A stretch of DNA of 64,000 nt from an uncultured Clostridia bacterium (GTDB lineage: Bacteria > Bacillota > Clostridia > Monoglobales > Monoglobaceae). Shown in pieces: positions 853 through 64,000 of this stretch (within the stretch, counting starts at the first letter, position 1; every line of letters begins with the position of its first letter). The notes under the pieces are model-generated. The model made no database searches. It was not told where the DNA came from and saw only the letters and a list, made by a program, of their open reading frames with translations. The stretch spans positions 62,001 through 126,000 of the forward strand of contig CANRNL010000001.1 in assembly GCA_947631965.1 (NCBI GenBank). The letters run 5' to 3'. Position numbers and translations under genes: made by a program.

Positions 853-909
853 AATCATTCCTCCTTATTTTTAATAGCCGTTAAATTCGGCAATAATATG
901 CTTACTATT

Positions 910-5307: not shown

Positions 5308-5387
5308 TAAAGCCACCACCGATACAATTATACAATATTTTTTGATTAGGTTCAACTATTTTTGTACATATTTGGCGCTCCGTCAAA

Positions 5388-5416
5388 TTGACTTTGCAAA
5401 AACAGGGGTGTATAAT
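5388..5416 (+). promoter_or_regulatory. Consensus sigmaA promoter for ABC transporter
   Basis: TTGACT (5388-5393), 17 bp, TATAAT (5411-5416), immediately upstream of RBS GGAGGGGG and ATG 5440. Confidence 0.75.
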
Positions 5417-5439
5417 AGCGTTTGGAGGGGGTATGTATT

Positions 5440-7263: not shown

Positions 7264-7271
7264 ATAAAGTA

Positions 7272-7304
7272 AAAAAGAGGCTTTCAAAACGAAAGCCTCT
7301 TTTT
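7272..7304. terminator. Bidirectional intrinsic terminator between ABC transporter and clpC
   Basis: AAAAAGAGGCTTTC (7272-7285) / GAAAGCCTCTTTTT (7291-7304), perfect 14-bp stem, A-tract and T-tract at opposite ends. Confidence 0.88.
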
Positions 7305-7313
7305 TGTTTTGCT

Positions 7314-10845: not shown

Positions 10846-10848
10846 AAT

Positions 10849-11343: not shown

Positions 11344-11360
11344 AATAAATACCCCCTTAT

Positions 11361-11807: not shown

Positions 11808-11828
11808 CTTTCTCACCTCGTTTTTGAC

Positions 11829-11912: not shown

Positions 11913-11949
11913 TAAATAAAAAATCGACTGCCTTTCGGCAGCCGATTTT
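11913..11949 (-). terminator. Intrinsic terminator downstream of the SLH protein gene
   Basis: Minus strand AAAATCGGCTGCC-GAAA-GGCAGTCGATTTTTTATTT; stem fully paired on the minus strand (one G:U), followed by a U-tract. Confidence 0.85.
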
Positions 11950-11962
11950 CGGTTTTATTCGT

Positions 11963-14900
11963 TTACTGCTCGGTGTACTCGCAGGAGGCGAGGAGTATAT
12001 CGTCATACGCCCACGACGAGGAAATATCATCAAAAGGATTTTCAAGCGTCTCGCGGATTTCGTCGGTCATACTTCTTCCCAAAATTCGGTTTATGATTGT
12101 GACCGCCTCCGCTCTGGTAATCGCGTTTTCGGGTCTGAACGTACCGTCCTCATAGCCCGTTATTATGCCGCGCTCCCAAAGCGCGTTGATATGCGGTATG
12201 CACCAGCCGTAGCTGTCATCGGTATCGCTGAAGAATCGCGCTTCGCCGCTTCCGAGACTGATTCCCATATATTTTGCCGCCATAACCGCAAATTCCGCTC
12301 TGGTAATTCGACCCTCCGGACGCGCCGTGCCGTCCTCATAACCGGATATATAGTTCTTCACAGCCGCGTAATTCATATAGTTCGCGTACCACTCGGTCGG
12401 GTCTACGTCGGCAAACACGCTCGGATATTTTTCGGAGCCGTCATAGCCGCCGTCGAGGACTGCGAGTATTTTGACAGTTTCGGCTCTCGTTATCGCGCTG
12501 TTGGGCTTAAATTTCACCGTTCCGTCCTCGCGGTAACCGTTTATATACGGCTTTACCGTATCGACGTCGGATTTATCTTCGTCGCCGCTCGGCGTCGGCT
12601 CGGGTTCTCGGATTGTACCCTTACGTCCGGGACGCGAATCTTTTTCTTCCTCCTTTTGCTCCTCTTGCTCGTAAACCGTAACATAATACTTGCGGGAAAC
12701 GCCGTATTTGTTTGTCACCGTGTATTCAACCGGCTCTTCCTCCGAAGCGGAGAAGTCCGCCGCGCCCTTGGGCGAATAATCCGCGCCGTCCGACACCCTT
12801 ACAGTGGGTCTGAGGCTCTTAAGGTCTGTGCCGTAGGGCATTATTATTTTAATGTAATCGTCGCTTAGCTCGGTATCGCCTATCTGACCTTCCAGCGTGA
12901 AGCCGAGGATATACGGGTCCTCACCCACAAGATTTATACGGACTGTATATACTGTCTGAGTTAAGCCGTCCGCGCTCGACAGAGTGTAGCTGACGGGTTC
13001 GCCGCTGAAATCGATCGACGCACCCGCTTCGGGATATATAACGTCCGAATCATACACTATGTTCGGAACGACCGACTTCAATTTGTCCGCATAAATATAC
13101 GGTACGTCAATAGTAATTTCCTTTCCGTTGTAACGGGTTTCTCCCTCCTGCAAACCGTCGGGAAGAGTGATTTCAAGCAGATAGTCGGACGTATGCGGAA
13201 CAACTATCTTATCAAAGTTCTGCTCAAACGTTATCTCGCTTTGTTCAAAGCCGTCCACGGTAAACACAAGCTCGTATTCCTCGTCGATATTTTCGGTGTT
13301 GGGCGGCATATCAAAGGTCGCCGCCGCCTTACCCGCCTCGTTGAACGTCACCGTGCCTTCTATCACGGTGCTGCCTCTGACCGCATTGACCGAAACGCTG
13401 TCGAAGAATATTCCCTCTATTTCGGCGCGAGCCGTGCCGCCCTTGTTGCTGCGCGGCTGGGAGAGCTTGACGCTCTTTATCGTCGGCGAGCCGTCGCGCG
13501 TTACATATACCGTATATGTTCTCGTGCCTCCGTTTGCATCCGTCACGGTGTACTGCGCCGAATACTCGCCTCTCCTGCCCGTGGGGGTAAACGCGCCCGC
13601 CGTACAGGTTCCGCCCGTCACTTCAACGTCCGCCTCGACCTCCGACAGGTCGGTGTCATATGGCAGAGTGACCGTTATCGTGCTGTCCTCATCATTTATC
13701 TCGCCCGATTTACCGTTTATCTCAAATTTTGTGATTTCGCCTTTAACGTCCTCGATAACACCGTGCGGAACTATTATCTTTCCGACGCTCTGCTCAAACG
13801 TTATCTCGCTTTGTTCAAAGCCGTCCACGGCAAACACAAGCTCGTATTCCTCATCGATATTTTCGGTGTTGGGCGGCATATTAAAGGTCACATAGACGTT
13901 GCCTTCGCTGTCGATAGACGTGGTTCCCGCAATACTTGTACCGTTTCTGACCGCGTTCACGGTAAGGCTGTCGTAGAACACGCCCTTTATATCCACTCTC
14001 GCGACTCCGCCCTCGGAGTCGGTCGGCTGGGTAATCTCGACGCTCATTATCGTCGGGCTGCCCTCTCGGGTTATATATACCGTATAGGCTCTGGAGTCGT
14101 CGTCCTTCGCGTGAACCATATACTGCGCCGAATATACCGCTCGTTCGCCGGTCAAAGCGAAGTTGGTTCCCTTTTCAACCTCGTCGCCGTCTATCTCTAT
14201 AGTCGGCTCCAAGCTGTTCAAATCGGTGTTATACGGCTGTGTTATATGCACGGTGAGGTTTTCCTCGTCTATAACGCCCTCCTCTGCGCCTATCACAAAG
14301 CTCTTGATGCTTCGTGTGGTTCTGCGCGGCACGGTTATCGTACCCGCTTCAACCTCGTTGCCGTTTATCGTAACTATAATTTTATACTCTTTTTCCTCGT
14401 AGGTCATATTTCTCTCGTCCAGAGATATTAAGCCCTCCGCGTAGCCGCCGTAGCTCTCGCCGTAGCTGAGAATTACGCCGTGGTACTCCTCCTCGCCGCA
14501 GACCGCCTTAAATGCCAGATTGTCCGCCGGACCGTTCGGGTCGGTGTCTCTTTTGGGTATAAAGTTACCCTCTATCTCAACTCTGATACCCGATACGTCC
14601 GCAAAGGATGTGGGAGGATTTTCGACCGCCGCACCCGTGATTGTGTTCGGGTCCTTTCGCGTTACATTTACGGTATACTCCCTCGTCTCTCCGCTTTCGG
14701 AGGTAATTGTATAGGTCACCGGAGCGCCGAAGTCGAGCGCGGTATCCGCCGACGGTTCGCACGTCGCGCCCGCGCTGAACGCTATATTTGCGGGAGTGAT
14801 ACTTCTCAAATCGGTGTTATAGGGAACGGACACGTTTATCGTACCCTTTGTTCCGTCGCTTGAAATTTCTATGTCCGAGGTCGTCACGTCCTCGCTGTCA

Positions 14901-17900
14901 ATCAGGACAAACTCGGTGATTTCACGCGCGTTCGCCTCGCTGGGGCGGATAACAAGCTGATTTTCCGCGGCAAACGGCGAGAGCGCGCCAATTTCAACGG
15001 TTATATTATACACTCGGCTCGTGTTGTCGTCGGGGTTTTCCGGCACCGGCAAAAGCGCGGTGTAGAAGTCGCCGCTCGCCGACTTTTCGGCCTGAGCCGT
15101 AATTTCGGTGCCGTTGCTTGTATCGCCGCTCACCAGCGTCGCCTTTACAATTATATCCGGACTTCCCGCAATCGCGTTTTTGGCGTTGTCAAGATTTTCG
15201 CCGTACACGTTGATTGGTACGTTTCCGGGCTTGCTTGATGTGGGATTCTCAAATTCCACCTTTGTAACAGACGGGGTCGCCTGCTTCTGAGCCGTTATGG
15301 TGTACGTCCTCTGCGCCCCGTTTTCAGCCGTTACAATACAAATCAGCGAATTGCTGACGTCTAGCGGTCCGCTCTTATCCAAGGGACTGCTGTGTTCGGT
15401 ATCGTCGGGAGAGTAGATTGCATACGAAGCGAAAAATCCGTCCAAAATCGTCAGAGTATTTATGACGAACTGCGTTAAATCCGCGTCATACGGCATAGTA
15501 ACTTCTATCGTACCCGTGCCGTCCTCGTCGTTGTTCGCTATGTTTACGCCAATTTGATTTTCGGCTTCAAACTCGGTTATATCGGTGTTGCTTTCCGTTT
15601 TTCGCGGAACGCTTATCTGATTGTCGAACTCCTTGACCGAAAAGTCCTCGCCTATCGAAACCGAAAGCGTATGCTGCGCCATACTTACGGTACTCTCGTT
15701 CGCGGGAACGGTAACATCCGCGACGTAGCTGACTATGCCGCCCTTGCTCTGAGGCGTTGCGACCGCGTTCTTCTCTCCGTCCAGCCATACGTTTACAACT
15801 CTGTTTGCCTCCTGCTCCGCAGTGACAATTCTTTCAAGCAGCGAACCCGTGAAGGTGACGCTGACCGTGCCGCCGTCGCTCGTTTCGGGATTTGTAAACG
15901 CCGCGTCTCTGAAGGAGGGCGCCGCCTCTTTGTATACGCGCACCGTATACACCTTGTCGTGTTCTCTTCCCAAAGCGGATGTTACGGTGTACTCGGCAGA
16001 CCTGAAGCTTGTCATATCGGTAAAGCGGTGCGGCTCTTCCACGGCGGGAGATACTCCGGTACCGACATACTCTATCTTTGACGCATAATAGTATTCCTGC
16101 CAGGTGTGGTCAAACGGCATATATACGCTTATTGCTTCGGTGCCGCTGTCCTCGATAATTTCGGAGCGTACCTGCTTAGAATCTTCGATGTCCGCAAGAC
16201 CGTCGCCGCTGAGGTCTACGTCGCAGGCAAGCTCAAATTCGCTTATATATGCGGTCGAGGTGTTCTTTTGAACTCTCACGCTTGCCGCAACGGTCGGGCT
16301 GAGCGTTTCGCCTTCGTCCAAAGAATAATATACGTCGTAATCGCCGAATTCATCAGCGCTTTTGTTTAATGGGAAGGTGAGCGTAGCCGTGCATCCACCT
16401 TCATCCTTTTCGGTGACATATTCACTGTCGGTCGGAGTATCGGTCGTGCCCTTGGGGTAGGCGAGTAACATAACATTTCCCGAAATCATCGAGCCTTCGA
16501 CGGTGTATGTTATCGAGCCGCCCATATACGGAAGAACCGAAGCTGTGGGCGTTATGCTGTCCACTCGAACGGTGTAGAGCGTGGTCATGGTGTCGGAGCC
16601 GTCAACCGAAGCCGTGCCCTTATATACCATACCGTTATAGGTGACCGCCATTTCGTACTCGCCGTCGGGTACAAGCAGATAGAGCGTGTCGTCCTCTCCT
16701 ATATAATATTTCTTTTCGTTGTATTCGCAAATATACGGTTCATCATCTCCGCGCGTTGTATCAAGCGCGGCGGCAAGCTGACGAAGCGGTGTAGACTTGT
16801 CGTCGGCAAGCACGGGGCGCACGATATTCGCGGGCGCGGAGTTGTTCACTATCCTCATATATGAGTTGCTGTCGGTATAAAAACGGGAGTAATCGGTCGA
16901 GCCGGTAACCGCCGCCTGACCCGTTCCGCCGACAAAAGCACACGCTACGTCTTTCGCGGTCATAACGGCAGTGCCGAGGCTTATCGCCGAAGCTGCCTCC
17001 GCGGATATGTTCAGCACGTTGTTTGCCGCGTCGCCGTCCTTGCCCGTAAACGAAATTGTGCAGCCCGGATTTACCGAGGACACCTGAACGGGCGAACGGT
17101 CGGAGCCTGAGAGCGTGCATATTCCGTCAACCGTAATATCCGCGCTCACGTTACTGAGCATAAGCGCATAGCTCGTGACGGCGCCTGTGCAGGATATGTT
17201 TACATTTTTAAGGGTTATCGGCGGGATTTCATCTTCGCCGCTGTCGCCCGGAAGGATAGATATAAAATGCTCCGCCGTCTCTCCGATTATAACGTACCCC
17301 GCGGCGTTAGGCTCGTAAACCGTGCCGCCGCAGTTCACGCTGTCCGGCTTTATGGTTATATCGTACTTAGACACGTCGAGTATCTGAAGCCCGTTCTCGT
17401 CCTTTTCGACCTCGCCTTCGAGCTTCATAACAACTTTATATTCGCGGGCGGTCAGGTCGTGACTGAGTATATAGTATTTTGCGGTGAGATATTCGCCGTC
17501 ATCATTGTGATATTCTGTCACAAGCGGCGCGTCGCTTTTTCCGCTCGACGAGTTCGGGCGCGCCTCCGCGCCTATATACTCGGTAATCGGAACTATGGAA
17601 TCTCTCTTTATGTTGTTCGGAACCGACAGCGTGACGGTGTTTTGCGCGTCGTCTATGACCGCCTCACCGGTCTGACCCACTACCGAGAACGAGGTCAGCT
17701 TCTTGTCGCCGCCGCCCGCCTGCGCCGTAAACTCATTGTCGTTATTTGCGTTTATACTTGTAAATAGGTAATACGCCGTGTCCTCTCCGTAAACTCGTAT
17801 CCAGCGTTTTCCGGTCGTGAGGTTGCGAAGATACAGATAGAGCTTGCCTTCCTCGTCCGTAAACGTCTTAATTTTGGAGGTAGTGTCATCCTCGCCCTCG

Positions 17901-20803: not shown

Positions 20804-20836
20804 ATTAAAATCCCTCGCTTATGCGCTCGCGCGCTT

Positions 20837-23008: not shown

Positions 23009-23054
23009 AAAAAACGTCTCCCGTATAAATTAAAAAACATTTGTGAATCAAATA

Positions 23055-23171
23055 CCGTGCTGTCCGCTTCAGATTACATTTTTATGTTTATGTCCGCATA
23101 TTATTGAGTTTATATTTAAAATGTAATTTGAAGCGGGCAGCACGGGGCGGAAACCGCCCCGTGTACTGCCC
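23055..23171. other. Overlapping alternative stem-loops (candidate regulatory RNA or processing element)
   Basis: 28-nt arms 23055-23082 / 23118-23145 with two non-identical positions; arm 23135-23150 also pairs with 23154-23171 (GGGCAGCACGGGGCGG-AAA-CCGCCCCGTGTACTGCCC). Confidence 0.6.
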
Positions 23172-23200
23172 TTACCGAAAACTCAATTCGGTTTTATTGA

Positions 23201-27961: not shown

Positions 27962-27963
27962 TT
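27114..27963 (-). repeat. Copy A of ~850-bp direct repeat encoding signal peptide plus cohesin-like module
   Basis: Aligns without gaps (constant offset 5060) to 32174-33023; about two dozen mismatches by eye; 27302-27747 identical to 32362-32807. Confidence 0.95.
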
Positions 27964-28030
27964 TTTTGCCCTCCTGTTTAATTGTAGTAGTTTATGTTAA
28001 GCTTAATTATTTTCGTATTAACGTCTCTCC

Positions 28031-28059
28031 GTGCGGCGGGAAGCTTCTTCCCGCCGCAC
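28031..28059. other. Perfect 13-bp GC-rich stem-loop in the intergenic region
   Basis: GTGCGGCGGGAAG-CTT-CTTCCCGCCGCAC; no U-tract on the minus strand after the hairpin. Confidence 0.8.
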
Positions 28060-28071
28060 AAAATTTTGTGA

Positions 28072-33021: not shown

Positions 33022-33023
33022 TC
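32174..33023 (-). repeat. Copy B of ~850-bp direct repeat
   Basis: See copy A at 27114-27963. Confidence 0.95.
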
Positions 33024-33093
33024 TTTTGTCCTCCAAACTTTATAATATATCTTCTAATTTAATTATTTTTTAAAATCATTTCGCCAAGTTGAT

Positions 33094-35214: not shown

Positions 35215-35230
35215 ATCGGACACACCTCCT

Positions 35231-39346: not shown

Positions 39347-39561
39347 ATCGCTTTTCACACCCTTTCGATTGGATTGTACGATTTGATTGTACTCTCGCCG
39401 AAAAACGAAACCCAACCCCGCCTCCTTGTCGGATGGGGCAGTTTTCGCTTGGTTATAAATTATTTCACGATCGGCTTGCGGCGCTTGCACACCGTATTTT
39501 GTCGCACGGTCGACTTTACATAGGGCGTAATATACGTCTAAAGCACAATACGCCTATTTAG

Positions 39562-39590
39562 ATTATATAACATCTATAATAAATTGTCAA
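39562..39590 (-). promoter_or_regulatory. Consensus sigmaA promoter for the 35231-39346 operon
   Basis: Minus strand TTGACA (39590-39585), 17 bp, TATAAT (39567-39562). Confidence 0.82.
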
Positions 39591-39644
39591 CATTATATAA
39601 TAAATTTACAAAATTTGTTACTTTTTTGTAACATTTTTTAAATA

Positions 39645-39678
39645 AAGAAACAGAGCGGAACTTTCCGCTCTGTTTCTT
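39645..39678 (-). terminator. Intrinsic terminator downstream of giant gene
   Basis: AAGAAACAGAGCGGAA / TTCCGCTCTGTTTCTT near-perfect palindrome, followed on minus strand by TATTTAAAAAATG; lies 25 nt past the stop codon at 39703. Confidence 0.8.
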
Positions 39679-39702
39679 ATTCTGTGAGTTCGGCTACGGA
39701 GC

Positions 39703-54700: not shown

Positions 54701-57700
54701 TCGCTCTGACCCTTAAGGGTCGGATACTCGCCGGGAGCCGCTATCGTCCATACGTCGTCGAAGTCCCAACCGTTGAAGGTATCTTCCTTGGTAAGGTCGT
54801 GCGCCCATACAGACTCGCTGTTTGTAACCGTAATACCTTCGCCGGCAATAACCGGATACGGATTTATGGTGTAAGAGTTCGATATTTCGCCAACGCCGTT
54901 TCCGTTGGAAGTTGCGGCTATTCCTGCCACATATCCTTCCGCAGTAACGGTACCTGCGTTATATACGTTTTCTACCTTGGCACTGCTGCCCATCGAACCG
55001 ACAATACCGCCCGCCGATGTATTTCCGCCATTGGTATTAACCGAAGCAACATCCGCCTTGTTGTAGGAGTTAATGATGGTGCCGTTGTTGTTACCTGCTA
55101 TGCCGCCTATGTAAATACCGCTGCCCTTAACAGTACCGCTCGATACCGCAACTCTGCTTATCGTGCCTCTGTTGACTCCGGCTACCGTACCAACTGAGTT
55201 TCTTCCGCTGATGTTTACGTTTTCAAACTTAATGTTGTCTATGGTGCCTTCGTTTATAACGAACAAGCCTCCGATACCGTTGCCGCCCTCATTGGACATT
55301 GTAAGTCTGCGTATCGTAAATCCGTTGCCGCCGTTGCTCGTGAGCGAGCCGGTAAAGGATTTTTGCAATCCGCTTTGTACTGTTCCGATCGGCGTCCACT
55401 CTAAGCCGCCGAGGTCTATATCGTTCATCAGAACGTAGTGCGCCGACATATCGTTTGCTATATTCTTGAGGTCGATAGCGTTTCTTATCTTATACGGATT
55501 TTCTTCCGAACCGTCGCCCGGATCCTCGGTCTCGCTCGATTCGCCGTCATCGCACGACGCCTTCGCCGCAACGTACTCGTCCTCGGTGCCTCTCTCTGCT
55601 ATTACAAGCTCAACGCTCGTGCTTCCGCCCTCCTTGGAGATAAAGAGCGCGTAATCCATATAGTCGCCGCTTGCCGAGGTAACTCTTATCGTGAACCTTG
55701 TAACGTCGCCGGTGAGCAGAGCGTTGGTAACGTCTACCTCGCCGTTCGTACCCGAAGCTACCAAAGAGGAGCTTTCGTCGTACAAATCTACCTGAGAGGT
55801 TATCAGCCATGCGGAGACGTGTATCGTCGCAGTCGAGCTGCCCGACGAAACCGTAGCCGTATATCTGCCGAGAACATCCATCTCGGCGGGCGTACCGTCA
55901 ACGACTACTCTTGTAAGGCTGAGGTCTCTCGAAATCTTCTGGATAACCACATTCTTGCTGACCTCGCCGCTTGTACCGTCATACGGATAGGTGTAGATTG
56001 TGAACGGAACGACCGTTGTCGTGCCTGTCAGGTCGAACAGCTTGGTGTTCTCGGAAAGCACAGGCTCGTTAGTCTCGCTCGCCCTGCCCAAGAGTACCTT
56101 GGAAATCTTGCTTCCCGCAACGACCATAACTTCGGCCTGCGTAGCGTTGTACGCCGCCTGGTATACATACTGTCCGTCAGTCTCTTCGACCTTCTGCTTG
56201 TTAACATATACCGCCGCTTCGCCGTCGCCGTTTGTGCCCTTTATAATATAGAGGGTGTATTCCTCGGTCTTGCCTTCGGCTTCTATCTCGAAGTGAACCT
56301 CGGTTATGTCGTCCGTGAGCTGGATAAGCTCGGTCGCGCTCGGACTGCCGGTCTTGGTTACCAGCTTGACGATTGCGCTGTCGTTGGACGCGGTTACCTT
56401 GAGTATGCCGTCCGCCAGAGCGGGTACGTTTACTGCGTATACGTTATTGAAGCCTTCAACCTTATCCGCGGTAACTCCCGCAAATACGACGCTTTCAACA
56501 CCCGTATCGCCTGTGTCGGCATACGTTATGGTAATCTTATGCTCGTCGCTCTCGGTCGCGTCGTCATAGCTTACTATCTTGAAGCGGAATTCGGTTTCGC
56601 CGTCGCTGTCAAGCTCAAGATTTTCAAATATCCTGCTGCTCAGGTGGTCGGACCAAATCGCGCTGTCCTCGGTGCCGTCGCCTATTCCGTCGCCGTAGAA
56701 CTTAACCTTAGCCATAGCTCCGAGCGGCAAAACGGTTACGTCTACCGGAGCGTCTTCATCAGCCGCTACGGTGTAGTCGCCGTTGCTGTCGGCGGTCAGT
56801 TCGTTCTCGTCAACATAAACCTTATCAACGCCGAGTTCTTCGTAATCTCTGTAAATATACAGCGTGTACTTCTGAATAACCTTCTCGGACGAGGACTGTA
56901 CCGTGAACGGTATTGTCTCAACGTCGCTTATGAGGGTATAGTTTACTGACAACTCGCCCTGCGCGCTGTTGTGCGTGAGCAATCCGGGTATCGTTATGGT
57001 CGCGCCGCCGTTTACGGTGCGGATAACTACCCTTGCGGGGTTCTTGCCCTTCGGGTCGGACGGATTTGACGGAATGGATATTTCGTAAATCGTCGGGTTG
57101 TTTCTGCGTGCAACCGCCGAAATATCGTTTACGGTCACCGCGTGACCCTCTCCCGCGAGGTCTACGTTGTCGGTCTTCTTATAAATGCTTATCGTGTACT
57201 TCTTCTCCGCGTTCGGCGTGAGTACCGTGCCGTCCGACAGTTCGGTATAGAGCTGCGAGCGAACCGTTACTTCAAGCGTCGTCTCCTCGCTGTTTTGGTC
57301 GAGTACTATTCCGTCTGTCTCCCAACGGTTGGAGTACGGACTTGTAAGCGTCTGGTTATACGCTCCGCCGATACTTACTATCTTAAGACCGCTGTCCAGA
57401 CCCTGAACCGTTACGTCTGCGCTTGTTACGTCGTTCTCAACGCTGAACGAATACTTGGTGCCGTTGAATATCGGCGTGCTGTTCTCGTCGCCGTTTACGT
57501 CGACATACTCAAGCGACAGGTCATCCGACGCGCCCTTAAGAATGAGGTAATACTCTATGGGAGCCGCCGACATATTCTGCGGCTGGAGCTTAATTCTGAA
57601 GTATCTTACAGCTCCAATATCAACGCCCGCGTTTACGGGGAAGGTGTAATCCGTGCCGGAGTGAGCCGTGTAGCTTACGGGGCTGTTTATTACATTGCCG

Positions 57701-60700
57701 CCCACCGCGTCTACCTCTACAAACTCGGTTATATGCGCGTTCGCGTCGTCGGTGGTTATATCCACGTTCGTGGTGCGTCTCGGCATACTTGCTTCATAGA
57801 TACGCGAGCCTACGCTCATATCCACATTGTACTCGCCCGCAAGACCCTTAGCGGTCACAATCTTAACAATCTCCGCTTCGGTTCTCGTCTTTCTGAATTC
57901 AAGCGCGTAGCTTGCCACGCTGCCGTTCTCGGCGCGTACTTCAATCACATACTTGCCCTCATGCTCGGACGGGTTGAGTACAAAGCTGCCGGTATTCTGA
58001 GTTGACCAGCTCTGACCATGCCACTCGTTGTTATCGTCATAGTAGCCGACTCTCATATTGGATGCCGGTGAAGTCTCTATATCAACAACCGCGGAGGTCA
58101 CCCTATCCGGCTCGTCAAGGAAGAGTACATATGTGTCTGTCTTGCCGTCGCTGTCGTTATCCTCTTCGGACGCGGGGTCGTTCATATACGTCACATAAAT
58201 TATTTCGTTCGCGCCGCTGCGCCTGTAAACTCTCAGCTTCTTGGGAGTCTGCCAGCTCGTGTTATCCGGGTCTGCCGCCGCGCTCTGAGAGAGAACATAT
58301 ATATCGAACTCAAGATATTCGGGATTTATGCCGTCCCAATCGTGTATGTCCTTAGGACCGAGCGTCGTAACGTGAGTATCGACTATATCGCCCATATTTG
58401 TCGGAGCGGGCGAGCCTGCCTCAACCACCATAACTCTCGCATACTGCGAGCTTGTGGTAACCTTTATCGTAGCGTAGACGTCCTCCCAGCTTACACTGCC
58501 GTTGTAATACGGCGTCGGGTTGAGCGCGAGAGGCGCTTCCAGACCGTTCACCTCAACGGTTACATCGGTGTCGGTGCTTTGTTTGAGTACTTTCAGCTTA
58601 TACGTCTTGACATAGCTGCTGCCGTCCTTGGTAATGTCAACCTCATATATTCCGGCTTCGGTTTCGGTTATGCCGGTGAGGTCAACGCTGAAGGTATAGG
58701 TATCTACGTCGGGATACTTCGCCGAACCTGCCGCATACGGCGGGTTAACGGGTCTTATCGCGGAAATAATCGCATCCTCGTCTTTGCTGACCGCTTCAAG
58801 GATAATGTCGTCGGTGAGGACATTTCCTCTTACGAATACGGTCACTTCGCCGGTGCTTTCCGTATCCTCGTAAATCTGACCCATATAGCTTGCCTTGAGT
58901 CCCAAATCCATATCGGCGGGAGTAACTATTATATAGTATGTCTTTACCGAGTTGCCGCTCGATGTGACTTCTACCTCTACAAGGTAGGAATCGTTGCCCT
59001 CGGAGCTTTCGTTGTACTTATAGGTCAGCGCTCCGAGCGAGAACTGCTTGGTAACAACACTGCCGTCGGTCGAGTAAGCGCCGCTCTCGCCTGCCGCCTC
59101 GAACTTCGTTACCGTCGAGGTCGCGTCCTCCAGCTTAACGCTCAGCGTAAAGTCGGTTGTAGAGCCGCTTCCCTGAGGTACGAATACATGGTATGCGGTA
59201 AGCGAGCCTACGCCTACGGTAACCTGATCGTCGTCGCTCTCGTCTACATATGTGAACTTCTTTCTCTCGGCTTCATCGTTCGTGGTCGGATATGATGTTA
59301 CCGATGTAATTCTTGTGTTGTTATTCTTTCTGTACAGATACAGCTTGTAGGTCGCCGCCTTATCTTCGGAAGAAGCATCCGAAACGGTTACGGTCACTAC
59401 GGTAACGTCGCTCACGTCAGCTTTGACAAGCTCGGCCTGCTCAATCACAGACGCCTGAGTTGTGTCGGCGCTATTGTCCATTATCGCGCCCGTCTCAACC
59501 GCTATTTCAACCGAATAGTTGCTGTCGGTCTTAGCGGCGAGCTTAGCGAACTCCGCTTCGCTCTCCACATAGTAGAAGTACGAACCGTCGGGCTTCTGAT
59601 ATGTGCTGTCGAGAGCGTTGTCGCTCGTCCAGTCGCTGTCTACCCAGAGCGACAGCTTGTAATTGTCGCTGAGGCGCTCAAGGTGGAGCAGGTTCTCATA
59701 TACGTTGCCCTTGTCGTCATACAGCTTGAAGGATATGTCCTTGGAGTTCGTGCCGATGGGCATTGCTATTTCCATCTCGGCATATCCGCCCGCAGTCCTC
59801 TCGCCGTTTTCTATTTGTACCGAATGGCTTGTGCTCATTGAGCGTACACCAACCAGAACCTTCTCCGCGTCGGGAAGAACATTGTAGAAGGTGTAGTTTT
59901 CGCCGTACGGCTGTGTAGCGTCACCGGTCGGGTCGTTGGCTTTAATGCCGTTTACGGTTATTTCTTCAACCGCGAGCGCCGCGTCGGTGCCTATTACTCT
60001 TATTGTGTAAACTCTGTTATCCTTTGTTCCGTCCTGAGAAGCCGACTTGATAAACTTATCTACCGAGCCGCCGCCCATTATTCCCGTGAGGTCTATCGCC
60101 GTCTGAGTGTACGGCGCGCCGTATGCAGCGCTTGCAATCTGTGCGTCGCCGAAGCTCTCGTAAATTCCCGACAACTTCGCAAGCTCGTCGGCTGTCATTA
60201 CCGTAAAGTCTGCCGAAGTCCAGTTTTCGGGCACTTCAACTATCCACATATTGCTTTCCGCATAGTCGTCCGCCTTATGAGCGTAGTACGAACCGACCTT
60301 GACGTACTCCAGATTATCATCATCATTGGTATCTCTTATGATAAGAGTGTACTCCTCGGTGCTGTATCCGTCCGCGCCGGTTACGGTTATGCGGTATCTG
60401 CTTATGGGCTGGTCGTGGAGAGCAGTCTCCTCGTTCTCCCACGTTCCGCCGACTACGGTATTGCCTTCTATCGGATTGTAGCTCAAGTCAAACGGTGATG
60501 TAGCGGTGTCTCTGCTTATCGCGTCAACACTAACCGATGCGTTGCTGTCCTGAGCCGTTATCTGAATCATCGCGTTGAGCCAGTTTGCAACCTCGCCGTC
60601 TCTCTCATAGGTGTAAACCTTGCTTACGGGCTGTACCTCGCTGTAAGGAACCGCGGACGCGCCGTCGCCGTCCTTGTGTCCTACGCGAACCTCTTTAAGC

Positions 60701-63700
60701 GCGGTGTTCACAACCACCTTGGTTACTTCGAGCGTGTAAGTCGTGTCGGTGCCGTCCTGCGCCACAACCTTTATCGGTATGTTGGTGGGCTGAGCGGGCA
60801 GCGCAATCGTATTAACGCGTCTCGCGCCCGTCTCGGTGTTGTCCACGCTGCCTTCGTTCGCGTTGATATAGATGTTCTGTACGCGAGGCGTTTCGGGCGT
60901 TGCAATCACGTTGATGTTGCTTACCGTGTTGGCTACCTTAACCTTATACGTCTTGGTATCGGGGTCGTAGGTCGCTTCAACCGTCTTGCCGTTTACTTCT
61001 ATCTCAACCTTTTCAAGGTTGCTGTTGTTCGACTCGGAGTAGATGCGCAGCATATGAACATCCCACGCGCTGCCGTCCTCCGCTCTTACATATATCGGAA
61101 CCTCGGCATACTTGCCGTTGGTAAGGCTTACGCCCGTGAGGTTCAGTCTTACGTTATCCTTCGTGTCGCCGTCGTAGAAGCTCAGACCCGCGGGAAGTGC
61201 GCTCGGTTTAACGTAAGAGCTGTTCTCATAGATTTGAGTATCTATCGCTATCTGAGCGTTTATATCAGCCGCCTTTGCTCGAACGGGGAGATTTATTCTG
61301 CCGTTCTCGGCATAGACCACATAATATTCTTCGCCGGTCGCCGCATCCGTCTTCTCTTCGAGGCTGCTGTCCTCGTCCTCAATCTTGGGCGACTTGACAA
61401 ACTCTATTCCTGTCTCCGACGTCTTCTTGCGGATTATGAGCTTATACGGCTTAAATGTCACACCGTCCTCAGCCATAACAGCCACGGTGAGCGTCATTTC
61501 GCCGTCGTTGAGCGACAGAGGCAAAGTTATTATCTTATCCGCCGTGCTTGAAGCTCCTTCAAAGTCTGTTTCGTCAATATCATCCGCTCCTACGGCGGGG
61601 TTGAATATGACTACCTTAGACGTGGTTTCAAGCGTCTTTGCTTCAATGTTGATGTGCTTGTTCGGGTCGGTAATATCCTCTGCGTTTATACCCAGATAGT
61701 AGTATACCTCTCCGTCCTCGTCCGTGAGCGTCTTAACCTTGCCCGTGTAATTCGGACTGTCGGCTTCTTCGGTGGGCTGTGCGTCCACGCTGAGCAGAGC
61801 CACGTTGCTCGACGCGTAGGTTACCTCAACCACCCATACGTCAGGCGGGTCTATGCCGTCCGCGCGGGTTATGAACAGGTTGAAGCGAACCTTGTTGTTG
61901 TCAACTCGGTCGAGATACTCGTTCGGAACGGTAAGCTCTACTATTCCGCCCTGCAGCACGTCTGCGCCGCTTGTGTCGTTCCAAACCGATGTCGCGTACG
62001 CGGTCTTGTTCGAGCTGTGGCTTATCGAGCCTGCCGCCGCCTTGGAATATGCGTTGCCGACGTGTACTCTCAGCTTGATACCGTCGTCGGAGTACGGCGA
62101 CGAGCCTCTGAAGGTCTTTATGGAGTCAAATCTCTCAGCCGTCTTTCCGCCGATTTCGAGACTGTCAACTCTGTTTGTCGGAGGCTGCTTATACAGATAT
62201 ATCGGATACGGATACGGTACCGCCTTAGTGCCGTCCTCCGCCTCAACATATGCGTAAAGCATTGTCGGTCCCGGATATGTTATTGTCGTCTCAGCCTCGT
62301 CAAAGTAGGTCGCGTCCTCCGCAGCCGCGCCGCTGTGCGGTTCGGTGGAGAGGGTCACTCTGAGCGACTTATCCTCGTTGCCGTCTGCGTCGGTTCCGAC
62401 AGCCTTAATCGTCTGCTTGGTGTTGTCGGTTCCGTCCTCGGACGGTTCGAGAGTATACTTAAAGTATGTTCCCGCTCCGTCGCTTACAAGCTCCGCTTCT
62501 TTGTCGCCCACGAATACCTTGATATTCGTGTTGCCCGACATCTTAACAATGTCTATTCTGTAAGCCTTGGAGCCGTAGCCTATCGACGGAGGATAAACCG
62601 CCGCGTATATCGTGGTCGTGTCGCTGTCGCCGCTGAGGGTTACGTCTATGCTCGCAACATTCGACGAAGCCGCCAGTGCCGCGTTTTCGGCAGAGGGCTG
62701 GTCGAGCGCGACGCCCGTCCTCGAATTCGCCTGTGCCGCACGAACGTTTACTCTCGTGAACTTATCGGTATTCTTAACCTTTACAACATATCTGTCGTTT
62801 TCGAGGTCGTATGTAACCGGATAATTTCCGAGTGTTATCGACGCTCCGACAGACGCTATATTGAACGCCTCTATGCTGTCGAGTCTCGGATCCGCCGACT
62901 CTCTGTAAAGTCGCAGCGTGTAGGTCTTGCTGTTAACTTTCAGCTGAACGTCCATATATCCCTGGTCGTTGGTTTCAATATCTATTGTGTTGTTCGCCTT
63001 ATTTGTCGCGGGAGTTTCCGAGCCTATCTGAACCGTCGCATCGCGGAGCATCGAGATAAGCGTTACATCCGCCGTCGCGTCGTTGTCGCCTACCGACCAT
63101 ACATACATTTCCTGACCGTCCAGCTTGGTTCTCGGTATATTGCCGCTGTCGTTTACTGATACATACGGCTCGTCTCCGACCCTTATTATGGTCAGCGTGT
63201 AAGGTGCGCCGCTAAGTCCGCCCGCGGTAACAGTCAAAGTAACGTCGTCTTGCAGCTTGCTCGGGTCGAGCTTCAAGCCTTCGTATGTGAAGTCGCTGTC
63301 CTTATCAACGCTTCTCTGATTGTTCGCTCCGCCTGCGGAATATGCCGGCGAATGAGTTACCGCCGCGACATCCACTACCGGAACAGCCTTAACGTCCGCG
63401 TTTACGGTATCCTCCGGAATAACCACTTCGTACTCCAGCGGAGACTTGCGGGTCGCGGTGTATACCGAGCTTCCGCCTTCCGCATCGTACGCCGTAACGG
63501 TTATATTGTCGGACATCTGCGTTGCCGCCGTCTGTCTGTAAATCGTAAGGATATGGTCTTTGTAGTCCGCGTCGCTGCTCTGCGGGGTTACTCTGATACC
63601 GACCGTCTTGAACGACTCGTCGGCTTTCATTTCAACCGCTTGAACATCATAGAACTTATCGTGCGTAAATACATCCGAGTGGTCGGAGTTAACCTTTACG

Positions 63701-64000
63701 CCCGCGAGCGCTATCTCGCTCGACTCAAGAACCTCGCCGTATACATACAGCGTCTTATCCTGCGGTTCTCCTTCTTCGTTGATAACCGCGTAATAATTAC
63801 CCGTATTTCCTATTTCGTACGCCGTTACGACATTACTGTCAGTCGCGGGGTCGGCGTTCTTTAATTTATTGTGTCCTTCCTCCGTCAAATCAAAGGTTTC
63901 GGTTTCGGAGTTTTCTCCGACCTTTAACGTCTTGATTGCGGCGTCGTTTGAATATCTTGTGGTATGAGCCTTATACAGATTTACATATCTTATCTGATTC
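39703..64000 (-). CDS. Giant secreted protein of tandem cadherin-like beta-sandwich domains with internal GLUG beta-helix island and dockerin-like C-terminus (5' end beyond window)
   Basis: Uninterrupted minus frame from 39703 to the window edge; manual translation upstream of the track's TTG 'start' gives NQIRYVNLYKAHTTRYSNDAAIKTLKVGENSETETFDLTEEGHNK with no stop. Dozens of repeats of the form 'L..L.V.......P.F.....Y...V......V.v.A.......V...........L..G.N...V.V...DG....Y.V.V.R'. Confidence 0.93.
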   Translation of the reverse strand, partial: NQIRYVNLYKAHTTRYSNDAAIKTLKVGENSETETFDLTEEGHNKLKNADPATDSNVVTAYEIGNTGNYYAVINEEGEPQDKTLYVYGEVLESSEIALAGVKVNSDHSDVFTHDKFYDVQAVEMKADESFKTVGIRVTPQSSDADYKDHILTIYRQTAATQMSDNITVTAYDAEGGSSVYTATRKSPLEYEVVIPEDTVNADVKAVPVVDVAAVTHSPAYSAGGANNQRSVDKDSDFTYEGLKLDPSKLQDDVTLTVTAGGLSGAPYTLTIIRVGDEPYVSVNDSGNIPRTKLDGQEMYVWSVGDNDATADVTLISMLRDATVQIGSETPATNKANNTIDIETNDQGYMDVQLKVNSKTYTLRLYRESADPRLDSIEAFNIASVGASITLGNYPVTYDLENDRYVVKVKNTDKFTRVNVRAAQANSRTGVALDQPSAENAALAASSNVASIDVTLSGDSDTTTIYAAVYPPSIGYGSKAYRIDIVKMSGNTNIKVFVGDKEAELVSDGAGTYFKYTLEPSEDGTDNTKQTIKAVGTDADGNEDKSLRVTLSTEPHSGAAAEDATYFDEAETTITYPGPTMLYAYVEAEDGTKAVPYPYPIYLYKQPPTNRVDSLEIGGKTAERFDSIKTFRGSSPYSDDGIKLRVHVGNAYSKAAAGSISHSSNKTAYATSVWNDTSGADVLQGGIVELTVPNEYLDRVDNNKVRFNLFITRADGIDPPDVWVVEVTYASSNVALLSVDAQPTEEADSPNYTGKVKTLTDEDGEVYYYLGINAEDITDPNKHINIEAKTLETTSKVVIFNPAVGADDIDETDFEGASSTADKIITLPLSLNDGEMTLTVAVMAEDGVTFKPYKLIIRKKTSETGIEFVKSPKIEDEDSSLEEKTDAATGEEYYVVYAENGRINLPVRAKAADINAQIAIDTQIYENSSYVKPSALPAGLSFYDGDTKDNVRLNLTGVSLTNGKYAEVPIYVRAEDGSAWDVHMLRIYSESNNSNLEKVEIEVNGKTVEATYDPDTKTYKVKVANTVSNINVIATPETPRVQNIYINANEGSVDNTETGARRVNTIALPAQPTNIPIKVVAQDGTDTTYTLEVTKVVVNTALKEVRVGHKDGDGASAVPYSEVQPVSKVYTYERDGEVANWLNAMIQITAQDSNASVSVDAISRDTATSPFDLSYNPIEGNTVVGGTWENEETALHDQPISRYRITVTGADGYSTEEYTLIIRDTNDDDNLEYVKVGSYYAHKADDYAESNMWIVEVPENWTSADFTVMTADELAKLSGIYESFGDAQIASAAYGAPYTQTAIDLTGIMGGGSVDKFIKSASQDGTKDNRVYTIRVIGTDAALAVEEITVNGIKANDPTGDATQPYGENYTFYNVLPDAEKVLVGVRSMSTSHSVQIENGERTAGGYAEMEIAMPIGTNSKDISFKLYDDKGNVYENLLHLERLSDNYKLSLWVDSDWTSDNALDSTYQKPDGSYFYYVESEAEFAKLAAKTDSNYSVEIAVETGAIMDNSADTTQASVIEQAELVKADVSDVTVVTVTVSDASSEDKAATYKLYLYRKNNNTRITSVTSYPTTNDEAERKKFTYVDESDDDQVTVGVGSLTAYHVFVPQGSGSTTDFTLSVKLEDATSTVTKFEAAGESGAYSTDGSVVTKQFSLGALTYKYNESSEGNDSYLVEVEVTSSGNSVKTYYIIVTPADMDLGLKASYMGQIYEDTESTGEVTVFVRGNVLTDDIILEAVSKDEDAIISAIRPVNPPYAAGSAKYPDVDTYTFSVDLTGITETEAGIYEVDITKDGSSYVKTYKLKVLKQSTDTDVTVEVNGLEAPLALNPTPYYNGSVSWEDVYATIKVTTSSQYARVMVVEAGSPAPTNMGDIVDTHVTTLGPKDIHDWDGINPEYLEFDIYVLSQSAAADPDNTSWQTPKKLRVYRRSGANEIIYVTYMNDPASEEDNDSDGKTDTYVLFLDEPDRVTSAVVDIETSPASNMRVGYYDDNNEWHGQSWSTQNTGSFVLNPSEHEGKYVIEVRAENGSVASYALEFRKTRTEAEIVKIVTAKGLAGEYNVDMSVGSRIYEASMPRRTTNVDITTDDANAHITEFVEVDAVGGNVINSPVSYTAHSGTDYTFPVNAGVDIGAVRYFRIKLQPQNMSAAPIEYYLILKGASDDLSLEYVDVNGDENSTPIFNGTKYSFSVENDVTSADVTVQGLDSGLKIVSIGGAYNQTLTSPYSNRWETDGIVLDQNSEETTLEVTVRSQLYTELSDGTVLTPNAEKKYTISIYKKTDNVDLAGEGHAVTVNDISAVARRNNPTIYEISIPSNPSDPKGKNPARVVIRTVNGGATITIPGLLTHNSAQGELSVNYTLISDVETIPFTVQSSSEKVIQKYTLYIYRDYEELGVDKVYVDENELTADSNGDYTVAADEDAPVDVTVLPLGAMAKVKFYGDGIGDGTEDSAIWSDHLSSRIFENLELDSDGETEFRFKIVSYDDATESDEHKITITYADTGDTGVESVVFAGVTADKVEGFNNVYAVNVPALADGILKVTASNDSAIVKLVTKTGSPSATELIQLTDDITEVHFEIEAEGKTEEYTLYIIKGTNGDGEAAVYVNKQKVEETDGQYVYQAAYNATQAEVMVVAGSKISKVLLGRASETNEPVLSENTKLFDLTGTTTVVPFTIYTYPYDGTSGEVSKNVVIQKISRDLSLTRVVVDGTPAEMDVLGRYTATVSSGSSTATIHVSAWLITSQVDLYDESSSLVASGTNGEVDVTNALLTGDVTRFTIRVTSASGDYMDYALFISKEGGSTSVELVIAERGTEDEYVAAKASCDDGESSETEDPGDGSEENPYKIRNAIDLKNIANDMSAHYVLMNDIDLGGLEWTPIGTVQSGLQKSFTGSLTSNGGNGFTIRRLTMSNEGGNGIGGLFVINEGTIDNIKFENVNISGRNSVGTVAGVNRGTISRVAVSSGTVKGSGIYIGGIAGNNNGTIINSYNKADVASVNTNGGNTSAGGIVGSMGSSAKVENVYNAGTVTAEGYVAGIAATSNGNGVGEISNSYTINPYPVIAGEGITVTNSESVWAHDLTKEDTFNGWDFDDVWTIAAPGEYPTLKGQSDDAPVSSLTIPNGTAAKPYKIDSAIGIKSIGNDADSLTKHYELVTDIDMSTLGTISPLGEFSGSLNGNGYKMIGLNVSQDGLFTVNSGTIENILIKDASVSAAEGDEGVGVLAGENAGTISQVAVSGGNVGGDSDAAAGGMVYRNSGLIEDSYVSGIILGNNNAAGIAAYNDGTIRRAYAYPSFTGTGNRAGITLSNGSGGTLENTHSSSGIGMDMVFDDPSYEGTNGSGTGDLTDMDTFDGWDFDDVWYLPGGGMPELRVNSMSMQTLSIGGAVLLSEVGVEPECEHIVYIRDTKNSAKIYIKTKNPSATVTVEWPSYDSAKYIGEFEGVLGGLINERTEIRFRVASGAAEEEHMLVIIKESDAANLERVEINGVEITRTGNTYIAEVKDNVESVEARITPESGRVKIVDDATGSDITESGMIDEDGRTWTNGALAVDQTKESTTYTITVINGRGNTAEYKLVLKPSQYFTGLREVKVDPHILDGGQLMSVGAEVLTADENGVYEYVISRDLEYIAIRAEATNVNANVSINNKNNTGYIHEIAAIDFKLDLSIMDFYIPIDVTTPDGLKGHYVLHMSRQSINPALAKVQVTYDGKVYNANNTETTESGDVIYTFDLPTEATASFDETIVLDKVYVQAQDTFTMVSAARVDYTVASDGSITIVGEQAADPQSTDGYIWEADNEELDHRELTIYQVKSKALDGNSILTSYLYIYRNSNLTDLESVTAIYDDGGTPVRSAATYDSATGEYQLWIPDGINEYDLEAVTKALRAQVNVQGTGYNYHISTGTLGTLLSRVQVTVLAADGTTSKTFYINVNILDLSLESILVSDTLGGVDEAPQFDGEKYIARINPKAESAKVTATAVDGGSYVNYVRIGYLNKPIKPTEDQYPSDETFEAAMAEYEEKFAEYDERAENFDASDEDVNWSSVSLTDAGWKELQNLVLQIPLRDEDGGFTMVKVQVGAANNIDAADIKDKIGLYKTYDLLIGKKYTNADKDIDIIIDGKTLNMEDNDGYTEGNTTYYRVGVSRAVGKNSVYFNTKEYAPSPYDPLVRVSDAVDPTYLTLTDFDPQPTNTTVSMAINPLSDNETTEIYVYSYPEADLDEDGVTADPQYGHRYVITVYRMSEDDTINVTETTVNDTYRTRGDTTTTGYKDYFTVSEATMVVDPETGRRYVKVYIKANSDKAKITINEQTYSGRNPSFIGETDDDTVMNGDEIKGILIPVTEGAISKTVSYTVTSEDGSKVSKNTLEITILSVNTDVDYVRVNSSNAYGPYYDDPSGIPYFEAFVPESVLDTEVPIEVQAATYTSGTTAELRDYALAPNDWVYNSSVRMRYRVSHMYEMPSSDILPKDAYSPYEVEFRIRPEAGAVDSSAKPQDYIIRIYLADSENNEVEKVEKDDELLHGVWVDKVGRITDENIENETAKRADYVGDDPYSQYDYRVDIDADITELEMKVAAEYEYAGVDIQDAYTGQWSYNYSTHEKTVRLTNLKPQQSYVVHFRIRTQAQMLANDSTSDGLGRTYSVRLERLSSNRALSMVAVYPNDPQKKDVRVEGLTTDKPIEFVTRYGETEVPIEIQAESASARIEIKDVSSGVSSGNLIDETLPFDEADDRTEMSTFTTSSNHKMPVEVHWQTYSVLVYAYEGDTAPAEYIVKVSRVVNNMTVKSITFNGRTAIRDANDPYLFTIDIGYDENIADIVAVADDSEEYIKFVPGTYGYVTGQNEENAVDLSSIAINATKTIDIRVGSKDVISTAPSLETDQYMDTSLVITRLPKDTLRSDLDLDISVGNRKTDPYSFELARFDSEEEIPDADRDQQSDGRYLRGKYMRNYSANINPSAITAYIKTQMKGMSSDVAFYLVDETTEIPLTNDTEDLLSTEASMSGLDRIKVHIVVKAKDGYYQDYMLTIQKTSSETGVLRVVAESDSSTNGAAEGMVSGITNNIIEYKVDLPTDATWVRPRVYTKDPYSYVSFYKTSYSPPNGERYDPTVAGNDGVRGEQTSLGNLTTVTYYFRVMPRTGSDYTDYKITMVNRPQSTRIAEVKAGLRSPENYEPLNERDYPINDTIVDGSQTVIWYNTSINAFTTYLVSIPYMPDDDTAILKVTAENNFATVEYPGLHLNQEDAQDTDRIPAYMDDVQLNDIETDSFTTVPVKVVSPLDEAHPQNYEVVITRYQHVYDLSVMVNGEMTKRVGGKESTTYERPTKLPFSVSEVTFNIAMAAPNKSYKIKVGDDGIMREVSPGNSMLTVNNIPLTDVETIVPIYVYDDSEMLLDTYYIIVRREMVNNNIGEILVNGNEVVEAVIFGDPGFEAYSYSAGDEALADVKIWAANTNADVTLSYWNTNIAGTTVGSPNKGYLQTDVNVETGDNYFWIEIDIGGSKVFYPLLIHHIPVDVYLDDVYVTETEDTEQLELVPSFIKTVENYTVKTRPGLSEYDIYATAYTTAKELEEYGKSQHWAPEQYQTRIQIGNGSELSMEDFSGGISSYVKQYISTITDGVTPEYVRVPVYLKVPHFIRTYNLDIHVPSDDTLLSELAVRHITNLSDYTLTPPYVASDSDDYTANTAVYSTEVSSDTEKVLIYAHARHDHAAWGYAGASTKVSMTDGNGASLASAKVEINQEVELNYGDNVFYVIVTSEDGEPKTYTLHVYRKPIKAELESVLVNGYPAVYDGANTYVAYVENGTTPEIVATATDTRADVTLTHLGDTVTDTHKATLALTDPVENEANVDIGVDVLGVDSKDYNLQLIGVTGDILSIYMDVESNTFTPTANNPIAAKWNSAQNRYEIYIPYNAPYDPYLRVITLNAGNKVKIGTHEFDYADGGITDTQYTKQTYLNHYQDPQSIIVMVDETNPRSYEVYVKRMSNEASLEALDVVQSAGVGALTPAFGSQTFAYTIDVTKETSELEFSRILATTNASLTLYYDDQAIDFTAQNGAGYKVENLKYGDNMFRIEVVSQDKTVTKVYVVNIRREKPAAEAALEDIRITIDGTYYSLVPMFDPEIYSIGNPYYMSVEGALIESEHPISIEAFVSDAFDDDYKVTSTVKYTTEDGTIVDESGPVEKNVVTIGNSADHPAVDRDLDSRSTTEVIFTVLSNDNGTRMREYKIILYKNEQINTNPKFNYLSSISLANHELTMAPFSSAETDYNYYANVSNVEAYEYLTIVPNTSMGANITLTMYDMSNGGAETHPLSGDPQQLNLTEGDNVYIIKVSVETSNMKKAEYYYSVIINREIANSESSRLNSLTVDNYTSAITQTSTRAFKLTVGTNVESINLHTYAENNKATIWVRSEMRDYDQIKTGENHAMDIPLVEGDNKVVITVTAPATDASDVSFTKTVYVLNVYRQTRGDATELIDIKYSDKEKGVMTPLFNSQIHNYYLAYNYDVSTVTLNPVPKSPDLVDIDASVGGTTTPLIPAADGTFSFSTSIAEGETKVVTFTVKAKGETGGTQYTVTLHRNMTETPIPSLSQALRLRDDAAVQYPIIPDFDADTHTYFASVPSDFDVAGITVWAQSNDPSNASDVAIKILPQSGIVETMANGVEKKFSDVVYGNNVYVIQLSNSHGNVTYYTLIVNRAGAGVETPSLDDLEVSYPSGYELTPAFNTDTKVYEVYVENDTEQIRLRPTSDSAAEIKINNLIVASGTESDLIDLEIGKNTITVVLTAADGATEQTYIVYVYRAKDDTPYYLTQLQLNKGTVVPSFSREVTNYYVTVPQNVASIDISAAANTGIVKANDNLVNGTYVQALKAGALNMVTFKLYDDNTTKIPRKAYTLSVYRKSTVESSADLASVTVDGYDIMPDFSPRELNYYVYVDADAESVDIDAEAASEYATVSGTGTVALTGNKTVRIITVTNGDTIQRYSVTVLKAAPDESVAGHLDGTDIQASAIAQTIYVDEDASSLTLNVNASGGNIVTVNGKEIDPSGETFSMSTEKERFDISVRSGADANATFESYVVYAYKGESDTYEPYITRIMADQNSSSTAQANFLSAFDPTVFGKYELINDGGTIYLFARPNDNQTYIELFNEELDDYAVVSGLPSNIAQTIPADSSSAEFVFRATKFSDTGYELVNEYTVKVYNTDKPILSNIWTDYNAEMQSEYDPLVKEYDVLIGKDVEEFTVFASHGYDDSKSPQISMSIDDGEYENVENGSGRLFNVSLDDTSWTVKVKFEVDGESVEYILNVTRSEQYLATVKLQDLVLTDETAPSDGLYEMTPEFEPEVTAYSAVVDYTDNTVTLTVTAESEDDTIVIETADGNQITAQSGMPVSVTLPAEFFEADDAVTRVKVIVASGTKTGRYEIKLTRTARKDGESRLESLKAADAELLTAGSFSGPGPYDVVVSKAAEYLKLDATALNPEDDIYFTYNGVDTAKQIGNIDWNIKLSEDNISYIFATVGENNDTAYTYVIKVVRANTAFFSEGVGLVVTDTDPDDEYELLDPTFSKEQIEYNVLVDALDQNIEFKLKTDEYLPTVNISLDGEQVYSESGTMSGLEITKEFELALDQKEFKFTFDIVSGVGGNRSGSYYVTVTRDTELEEPELQTYVKGTIYTAILNSSKGQTMFDASGTVSLYKWDEDDGEWLPANHDGSNSNVMEVANNEGGKFGADFEFKLPEEGLFKVVLHTDGYLNTEICNIKSSKTFAKAEYDFGPKTCISGNVTDYGSSNGVVDETDFSVMTMFMDNTLLESYEIVFTLLDNPDKYLSSEGDAEVLDGEPEESDDADKSDETSGDEAETKPDTDKSDETNGDETETKPDTDKYDETSGDEAETKPDTDKSDETSGDETETKPDTDKSDETSGDETDTEVSGDTAKTEAEAEAEPEAETEPENTEAEVELAAVEDEVEAEPEAKAEEEPEAEAEEEPVEADETDNSELEADGYEAEDNTDAEPEAEDEDASENGMAKILAERRLMAVGVMPEKVKNSTKSYNGIAYNSSDIILGGIDENGYASYGYYENGRGERILMWIHYDGEVVFRGTCDLDRDGMILSWTDAFDMSTSYKSVTRTIDNITGAQNYPWDRTAELKHYVEK
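40391..40627 (-). repeat. 51-bp tandem repeat (17-aa DKSDETSGDEAETKPDT)
   Basis: 'tcgccg(c/t)ttgtctcgtcg' recurs at 40391, 40442, 40493, 40544, 40595. Confidence 0.93.
53920..55550 (-). other. GLUG-motif beta-helix region inside the giant protein
   Basis: GSEENPYKIRNAIDLKNIANDMSAHYVLMNDIDLGGLEWTPIG...GGIAGNNNGTIINSYNKADV...GGIVGSMG...DTFNGWDFDDVWTIAAPGEYPTLKG, then a second copy ending DTFDGWDFDDVWYLPGGGMPELRV. Confidence 0.85.

Follow-up and report, generated by a model that had tools for sequence, protein, structure and literature searches.

Cohesins, dockerins and SLH repeats are usually read as the working parts of a degradation machine, as in the cellulosome of the Acetivibrio thermocellus type with its SLH-anchoring scaffoldins (PMC11557425). 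Non-cellulosomal cohesin/dockerin systems have been discussed for ANME archaea, where their role is unclear and cell-cell interaction is suspected (PMC9012536, citing Peer et al. 2009). At the far end of the size scale, the giant open reading frames of the Omnitrophota include one whose product measures 39,678 aa and one with nine non-cellulosomal dockerins (PMC10066038). Here we describe a locus in which cohesin/dockerin/SLH parts are clustered with non-catalytic proteins only, in a single presence/absence block. The window, that is, the whole stretch of 64,000 nucleotides that was analysed, corresponds to C1:62,001-126,000 of a 1.95-Mb genome, probably of a gut-type Clostridia bacterium, in 48 contigs that is 81% complete, and from position 11963 to its end it is filled by seven consecutive long open reading frames (Table 1), named below by their lower coordinate, with the last called the giant.

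Table 1. Features of the window and their positions within it.
Feature	Position	Strand	Description
5' part of 1,635-aa dockerin-bearing Peptidase_M60 protein	1..858	(-)	C1:57,951-62,858; outside the block, in the part common to G002
82-kb block, window part	11915..64000	(-)	Genome C1:73,915-155,944; seven genes; about 20 bp instead in sister genome G002 (blastn)
11963, 2,946-aa secreted protein	11963..20803	(-)	Glu/Thr/Pro/Ser-rich N-terminus, Gly/Asn-rich repetitive region, DUF5018/DUF6242-like beta-sandwich repeats, C-terminal SLH as wall anchor (SLH E 6.9e-27)
20837, 723-aa secreted protein	20837..23008	(-)	He_PIG, four MBG_3 repeats, GNSP module, canonical dockerin (Dockerin_1 E 8.7e-12)
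23201, 1,586-aa secreted protein, candidate anchor	23201..27961	(-)	Orphan N-terminal module, YDG/Ig-like repeats, three C-terminal SLH repeats
Orphan N-terminal module of 23201 product	27098..27865	(-)	Candidate cohesin at most (profile comparisons)
13-bp GC-rich stem	28031..28059	(-)	Between 28072 and 23201; no good T tract on this strand
28072, 1,654-aa secreted protein	28072..33036	(-)	Orphan N-module as in 23201, seven Flg_new (Listeria-Bacteroides) repeats, C-terminal X-dockerin; likely start ATG at 33021
33094, 709-aa secreted protein	33094..35223	(-)	N-module at 34489-35052 with weak cohesin-like signal, C-terminal X-dockerin; likely start ATG at 35214
35231, secreted protein	35231..39490	(-)	N-module at 38555-39253 with weak cohesin-like signal; Ig-like, Flg_new_2 and cadherin-like parts; X-dockerin at the C-terminus, one of its loops canonical; 1,371 aa from the better ATG 39346, 1,419 aa from GTG 39490
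Perfect consensus promoter TTGACA-17-TATAAT	39562..39590	(-)	12/12 matches; upstream of 35231, directly after the giant's terminator
Hairpin terminator after giant gene	39640..39675	(-)	AACAGAGCGGAA..TTCCGCTCTGTTTC, then T-rich
Giant open reading frame, 3' part	39703..64000	(-)	Whole frame C1:101,703-155,672

The original prediction described seven consecutive minus-strand genes for giant secreted proteins, and so they are: the open frames from 11963 to 63888 and beyond are all present, and a hydrophobic, signal-like segment stands at the N-terminus of each product (7/7). Two were said to end in SLH repeats, and Pfam places such repeats at the terminus of the 23201 (E 1.3e-34; three repeats) and 11963 products. 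Other Pfam repeats among the block proteins are of the MBG, YDG, Flg_new, DUF5018/6242 and cadherin-like kinds. The prediction had also staked itself on the seven proving free of catalytic domains in HMM searches, and none came to light: Pfam detected no glycoside hydrolase, protease, lyase or other catalytic domain across them, an NCBIfam search of the six smaller proteins added none, and domain searches found no carbohydrate-binding module among the seven. Because a terminator follows the giant gene and a consensus promoter precedes 35231, the sequence suggests division into the transcription units giant, 35231-33094-28072, 23201 and 20837-11963, with the promoter probably driving the second of these and the GC-rich stem possibly acting as an attenuator or marking a transcription-unit boundary.

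The seven genes form one accessory, species-specific block of 82 kb. When C1 is aligned by blastn with contig C11 of the sister species G002, a member of the same genus, the flanks (94.5-95% identity) end at C1:73,914 / C11:41,059 and resume at C1:155,945 / C11:41,080, so that some 20 bp stand in G002 where the block stands here. McsB and IspG, its left and right neighbours, are 4.2 kb apart in G002 and 86 kb apart here, and the missing 82 kb is exactly the seven genes. Where the original prediction looked to related genomes for conserved synteny, G002 offers an empty site between collinear flanks and, anywhere in its genome, no match to the N-module, the X-dockerin or the RCC1 domain. Neither integrase nor transposase was seen among the seven genes of the block, whose GC and GC3 resemble those of flanking genes. 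G002 does retain a short stretch similar to the right end of the block, which, in this comparison of two species, hints that the block was lost there rather than gained here. A ClpC-McsB-McsA-CtsR-type operon lies directly beside the block's left end (window 7314-11816).

Joined with its neighbouring sequence, the window yields a giant that runs far beyond it, in a single open frame of 17,989 codons (1.92 MDa, pI 4.4); the frame first seen within the window is real, but its product is 17,989 aa long, not 8,061. The protein starts MKLKQRLSKWLSTLIMLSMLASSVQTSAA, and its signal-like N-terminus, an Ala/Glu/Lys-rich stretch and most of its roughly 17 RCC1 propellers with their Big_2 spacers (aa ~728-9,601) lie outside the window. 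Inside it are about 49 cadherin-like sandwiches (aa 9,956-17,518) and a GLUG/M26_N-like insert, and the C-terminus there is acidic and dockerin-like. The propellers make up about half of the giant and contain 111 repeats by our own profile in 17 groups of 5-7 (Pfam PF25390/PF00415/PF13540), displaying the tandem sets of about seven that characterise RCC1 beta-propellers. A match to Peptidase_M26_N was rejected as a sign of protease, since it covers only the tail of the N-terminal-region model and falls in GLUG-like repeats. The dockerin-like end ascribed to the giant is visible as two loop-like segments in an acidic terminus, but its score against dockerins of the order (hhalign) lies inside the shuffled range and so does not rise beyond chance.

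The four C-terminal dockerins claimed for the smaller proteins fared better. Those of the 28072, 33094, 35231 and 20837 products are homologous, each with a 'GNSP' module and then two loop-helix motifs; that of 20837 is a strong Pfam match, and the other three fall under the Pfam cut-off and are recognised by profile. Against ten dockerins of the same order, hhalign gave E values of 7e-5 (28072), 1e-5 (33094), 8e-6 (35231) and 3e-11 (20837), with scores of 26-55 vs a maximum of 21 for 60 shuffles, and a joint profile of the four matched mostly dockerins in the PDB (best 4fl4, E 0.0016). Both calcium loops are canonical in 20837 and the second alone in 35231. The 28072 and 33094 dockerins are the two most alike (63-65% identity between their X-dockerins), and because calcium ligands are missing from loop 1 and from position 5 of loop 2, where Thr is found, they may bind differently. 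Neither the order's other genomes nor a GTDB contig scan yielded a relative of the X-dockerin.

Dockerins on non-cellulosomal secreted proteins and a cohesin partner in the same genome are both features of non-cellulosomal systems, and both are present. A Pfam Cohesin search of the 81% complete genome gave one match over the cut-off, a single cohesin on contig C35, in a cohesin-SLH protein also recovered by hhalign (E 1.9e-7); a protein on C4 has an N-terminus that is a probable cohesin by the same comparison (E 1.1e-4), which would make it a cohesin-SLH protein too. The Pfam search found no scaffoldin with several cohesins, though a genome of this completeness could miss one. On C35 (L032, 7884-13217), overlapping genes encode a cohesin-SLH3 anchor and two F5/8-like proteins, one with a dockerin and one with SLH, a trio found again in G002 (L090), and a dockerin protein adjoins a cohesin(-like)-SLH protein on C4 (L034, 4521-8473) and in genome G004 (L086, 4034-9533). 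The C4 dockerin protein bears a long acidic tail. Across the 51 genomes of the order, a cohesin occurs in 42/51, a dockerin in 43/51 and an RCC1-like domain in 31/51. RCC1 can be tied to cohesin/dockerin-type systems because RCC1-propeller proteins of G004 (L084, L085) end in a cohesin-like domain, a sub-threshold Pfam match; L088 of that genome holds a subtilase domain. A GTDB contig scan with an RCC1-cohesin protein found remote RCC1 proteins only. SLH domains bind pyruvylated wall polymer, and the genome has a single match (E 2.0e-40) to the polysaccharide pyruvyl-transferase family PF04230, a family also common in genomes without SLH proteins. At least 100 SLH repeats are scattered over many contigs of this 1.95-Mb genome, denoting an SLH-rich surface proteome.

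Some of these dockerins travel with enzymes. Among the five Pfam-detected dockerin proteins of the genome, the only enzymes are a 1,806-aa protein with an N-terminal dockerin and a pectinesterase domain (L033 on C3, 8584-14004), whose dockerin matches the one in the C4 dockerin protein at 95% identity, and the M60 protease outside the block. The 5' part of the latter, at 1-858, had been predicted to carry a dockerin, and Pfam confirms it (E 7.5e-7 in the partial frame; Dockerin_1 E 8.7e-6 in the 1,635-aa protein), alongside two fn3 domains, an F5/8-like domain and a Peptidase_M60 domain (E 2.5e-18) with HEVGHNMDKLGKAE, the metalloprotease motif HEXXHX8E. M60-like proteins are characteristic of microbes that live on animal mucosa (PMC3267712). 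The label 'enzyme-free' is thus true of the block, which holds no dockerin-borne plant-wall hydrolase, but not of the organism, whose dockerins are also found on an M60-type metalloprotease and a pectinesterase-domain protein.

With moderate confidence, we read the block as an accessory, non-catalytic cell-surface layer with its dockerins held by cohesins and the giant as its outer element. The 11963 and 23201 products would be held on the wall by their SLH repeats, and the 20837, 28072, 33094 and 35231 products through their C-terminal dockerins by cohesins, the receptors being either the cohesin-SLH anchors of other contigs or, with less certainty, the block's own orphan N-modules. The giant, with its propellers followed by cadherin-like sandwiches, would serve as the outermost fibre or coat element, in adhesion or shielding. 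This assembly through cohesin-dockerin pairs, the giant's place in it and its adhesive or shielding role are what we infer from sequence. We favour the surface-layer reading because SLH and dockerin matches occur without any catalytic domain, and RCC1 and cadherin-like arrays sit in an uninterrupted secreted-type frame; because the empty G002 site is exact and G002 lacks homologues of N-module, X-dockerin and RCC1 arrays; because the C35 cohesin-SLH anchor adjoins a dockerin gene, in a trio shared with G002 and resembled by the pairs of G004; and because cohesins and dockerins pervade the order and a PF04230 gene is present, as expected with SLH. Against it stand the want of a significant cohesin in the block, the altered calcium loops of 28072 and 33094, and the giant's end, which scores within chance. 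Since cohesins and dockerins are genome- and order-wide and some dockerins are carried on enzymes, the layer would be an addition to a common toolkit that does include enzymes. That block dockerins share anchors with the enzyme-bearing proteins is unproven, because the 28072 and 33094 dockerins resemble theirs by just 27-32%.

The original prediction drew a tighter picture, which we hold as tentative and rather doubtful: a closed system with divergent cohesins as the N-modules of 23201, 28072, 33094 and 35231, in which 23201 acts as the wall anchor, the other three as monovalent adaptors that form chains, and 20837 and the giant as the cargo. The 256-aa N-modules of 23201 and 28072 are 96-97% identical, one copy sitting with SLH repeats and the other with a dockerin, as expected of a common binding module. 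On an enlarged cohesin profile, moreover, the N-modules of 33094 (21.6 vs a shuffle maximum of 15.9) and 35231 (25.2 vs 22.5) beat their shuffles, with a weak and partial signal at the segment that holds a YD motif, and that of 35231 gives the best Pfam Cohesin match in the block, sub-threshold at E 0.3. Yet a control segment of 28072 scores 25.1 on this profile, level with the 35231 N-module, and the 23201 and 28072 N-modules do no better than shuffles. No block N-terminus passes the Pfam Cohesin cut-off; on the profile of order cohesins, for which C35 served as positive control, 33094 reached E 0.013 and the N-modules of 23201, 28072 and 35231 had no match; PDB sequence searches returned nothing relevant; and AlphaFold2 confidence was too low to use (pLDDT 27 for the four-sequence alignment, 35 for 33094 alone). 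The 23201/28072 module has no relative outside its own genome in 38 genomes of the family, and that of 33094 none over noise in 51 genomes of the order. The claim that at least four proteins start with cohesin-like modules was therefore not borne out, and cohesins at the N-termini are unproven. Profile searches upheld the SLH repeats, the dockerins and the want of catalytic domains, but returned no significant cohesin; of the anchor-adaptor-cargo chain there stand the non-catalytic SLH and dockerin proteins side by side, but not the cohesins that would link them. The C35 anchor and the probable one of C4 could receive the block's dockerins instead. A bolder conjecture, and an unlikely one, would make the block a self-contained, swappable surface organelle: a precise 82-kb cassette, with its own family of orphan cohesin/X-dockerin pairs, which sister species gain or lose whole and which builds a non-catalytic protein coat out of SLH-anchored receptors, adaptors that chain, and an RCC1/cadherin-like fibre of 1.92 MDa that measures several hundred nanometres.

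If the block's proteins did not assemble at all, they would be independent giant adhesins of a diversifying locus, sharing C-terminal modules by duplication, the SLH-bearing ones on the wall and the others released or bound otherwise. We think this improbable. Modules shuffled between neighbouring genes, extreme size and repeat content, orphan modules and the lack of a significant cohesin in the block all suit such a history, but without docking it is difficult to account for four homologous dockerins at a single locus when cohesin-SLH anchors are common in the order. Less probable still is that the block serves a degradative complex, presenting proteins that bind substrate and so bring pectin or mucin to the dockerin-bearing pectinesterase and M60 protease. 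Both enzymes are encoded in the same genome, and the pectinesterase protein shares its near-identical dockerin with the neighbour of the C4 SLH anchor; against this, the seven proteins have no carbohydrate-binding module or catalytic domain, and G002 has retained the M60 dockerin protein region, at 95% identity, although it has no block. A structural, adhesive or shielding role, as originally proposed, is supported as a better fit for the seven than a degradative one. That the giant frame or the whole block is a misjoin or repeat expansion, as an incomplete metagenome-assembled genome in 48 contigs and a highly repetitive gene might lead one to fear, is very improbable: the giant's propellers are 27-65% identical to one another, too diverged for collapsed or expanded assembly, its gene holds a single exact DNA repeat of at least 60 bp (127 bp, 3.6 kb apart), there is no N and the frame is open throughout, GC and GC3 are like those of the flanking genes, and both block flanks are collinear with the sister genome.

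The locus adds a 17,989-aa RCC1/cadherin-like megaprotein to an order of bacteria in which cohesins, dockerins and RCC1 proteins abound. If the assembly is real, the sister species, whose site matches apart from the missing block, makes it a natural experiment on what such an optional coat does for its bacterium. With the Acetivibrio thermocellus-type cellulosome the locus and its genome share secreted dockerin proteins, SLH wall anchors and genomic cohesin-SLH anchors, but the block differs in having no glycoside hydrolase, multi-cohesin scaffoldin or CBM3, and its cohesins are candidates only. Like the ANME-type systems, it places dockerin/cohesin parts on large surface proteins without cellulases and varies between close species; unlike them, it concentrates these parts, along with SLH proteins and a megaprotein, in a single 82-kb block that is precisely present or absent. 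The Omnitrophota giants are likewise very large predicted surface proteins with adhesion-type domains, some larger than ours, whereas this one is a Clostridia protein of RCC1 propellers and cadherin-like repeats with dockerin and SLH neighbours. Closest to home are other RCC1-array proteins of the same order, some of them fused to a cohesin-like domain or a subtilase; among the matches listed their open frames reach about 3,240 aa at most, against the 17,989 aa found here.
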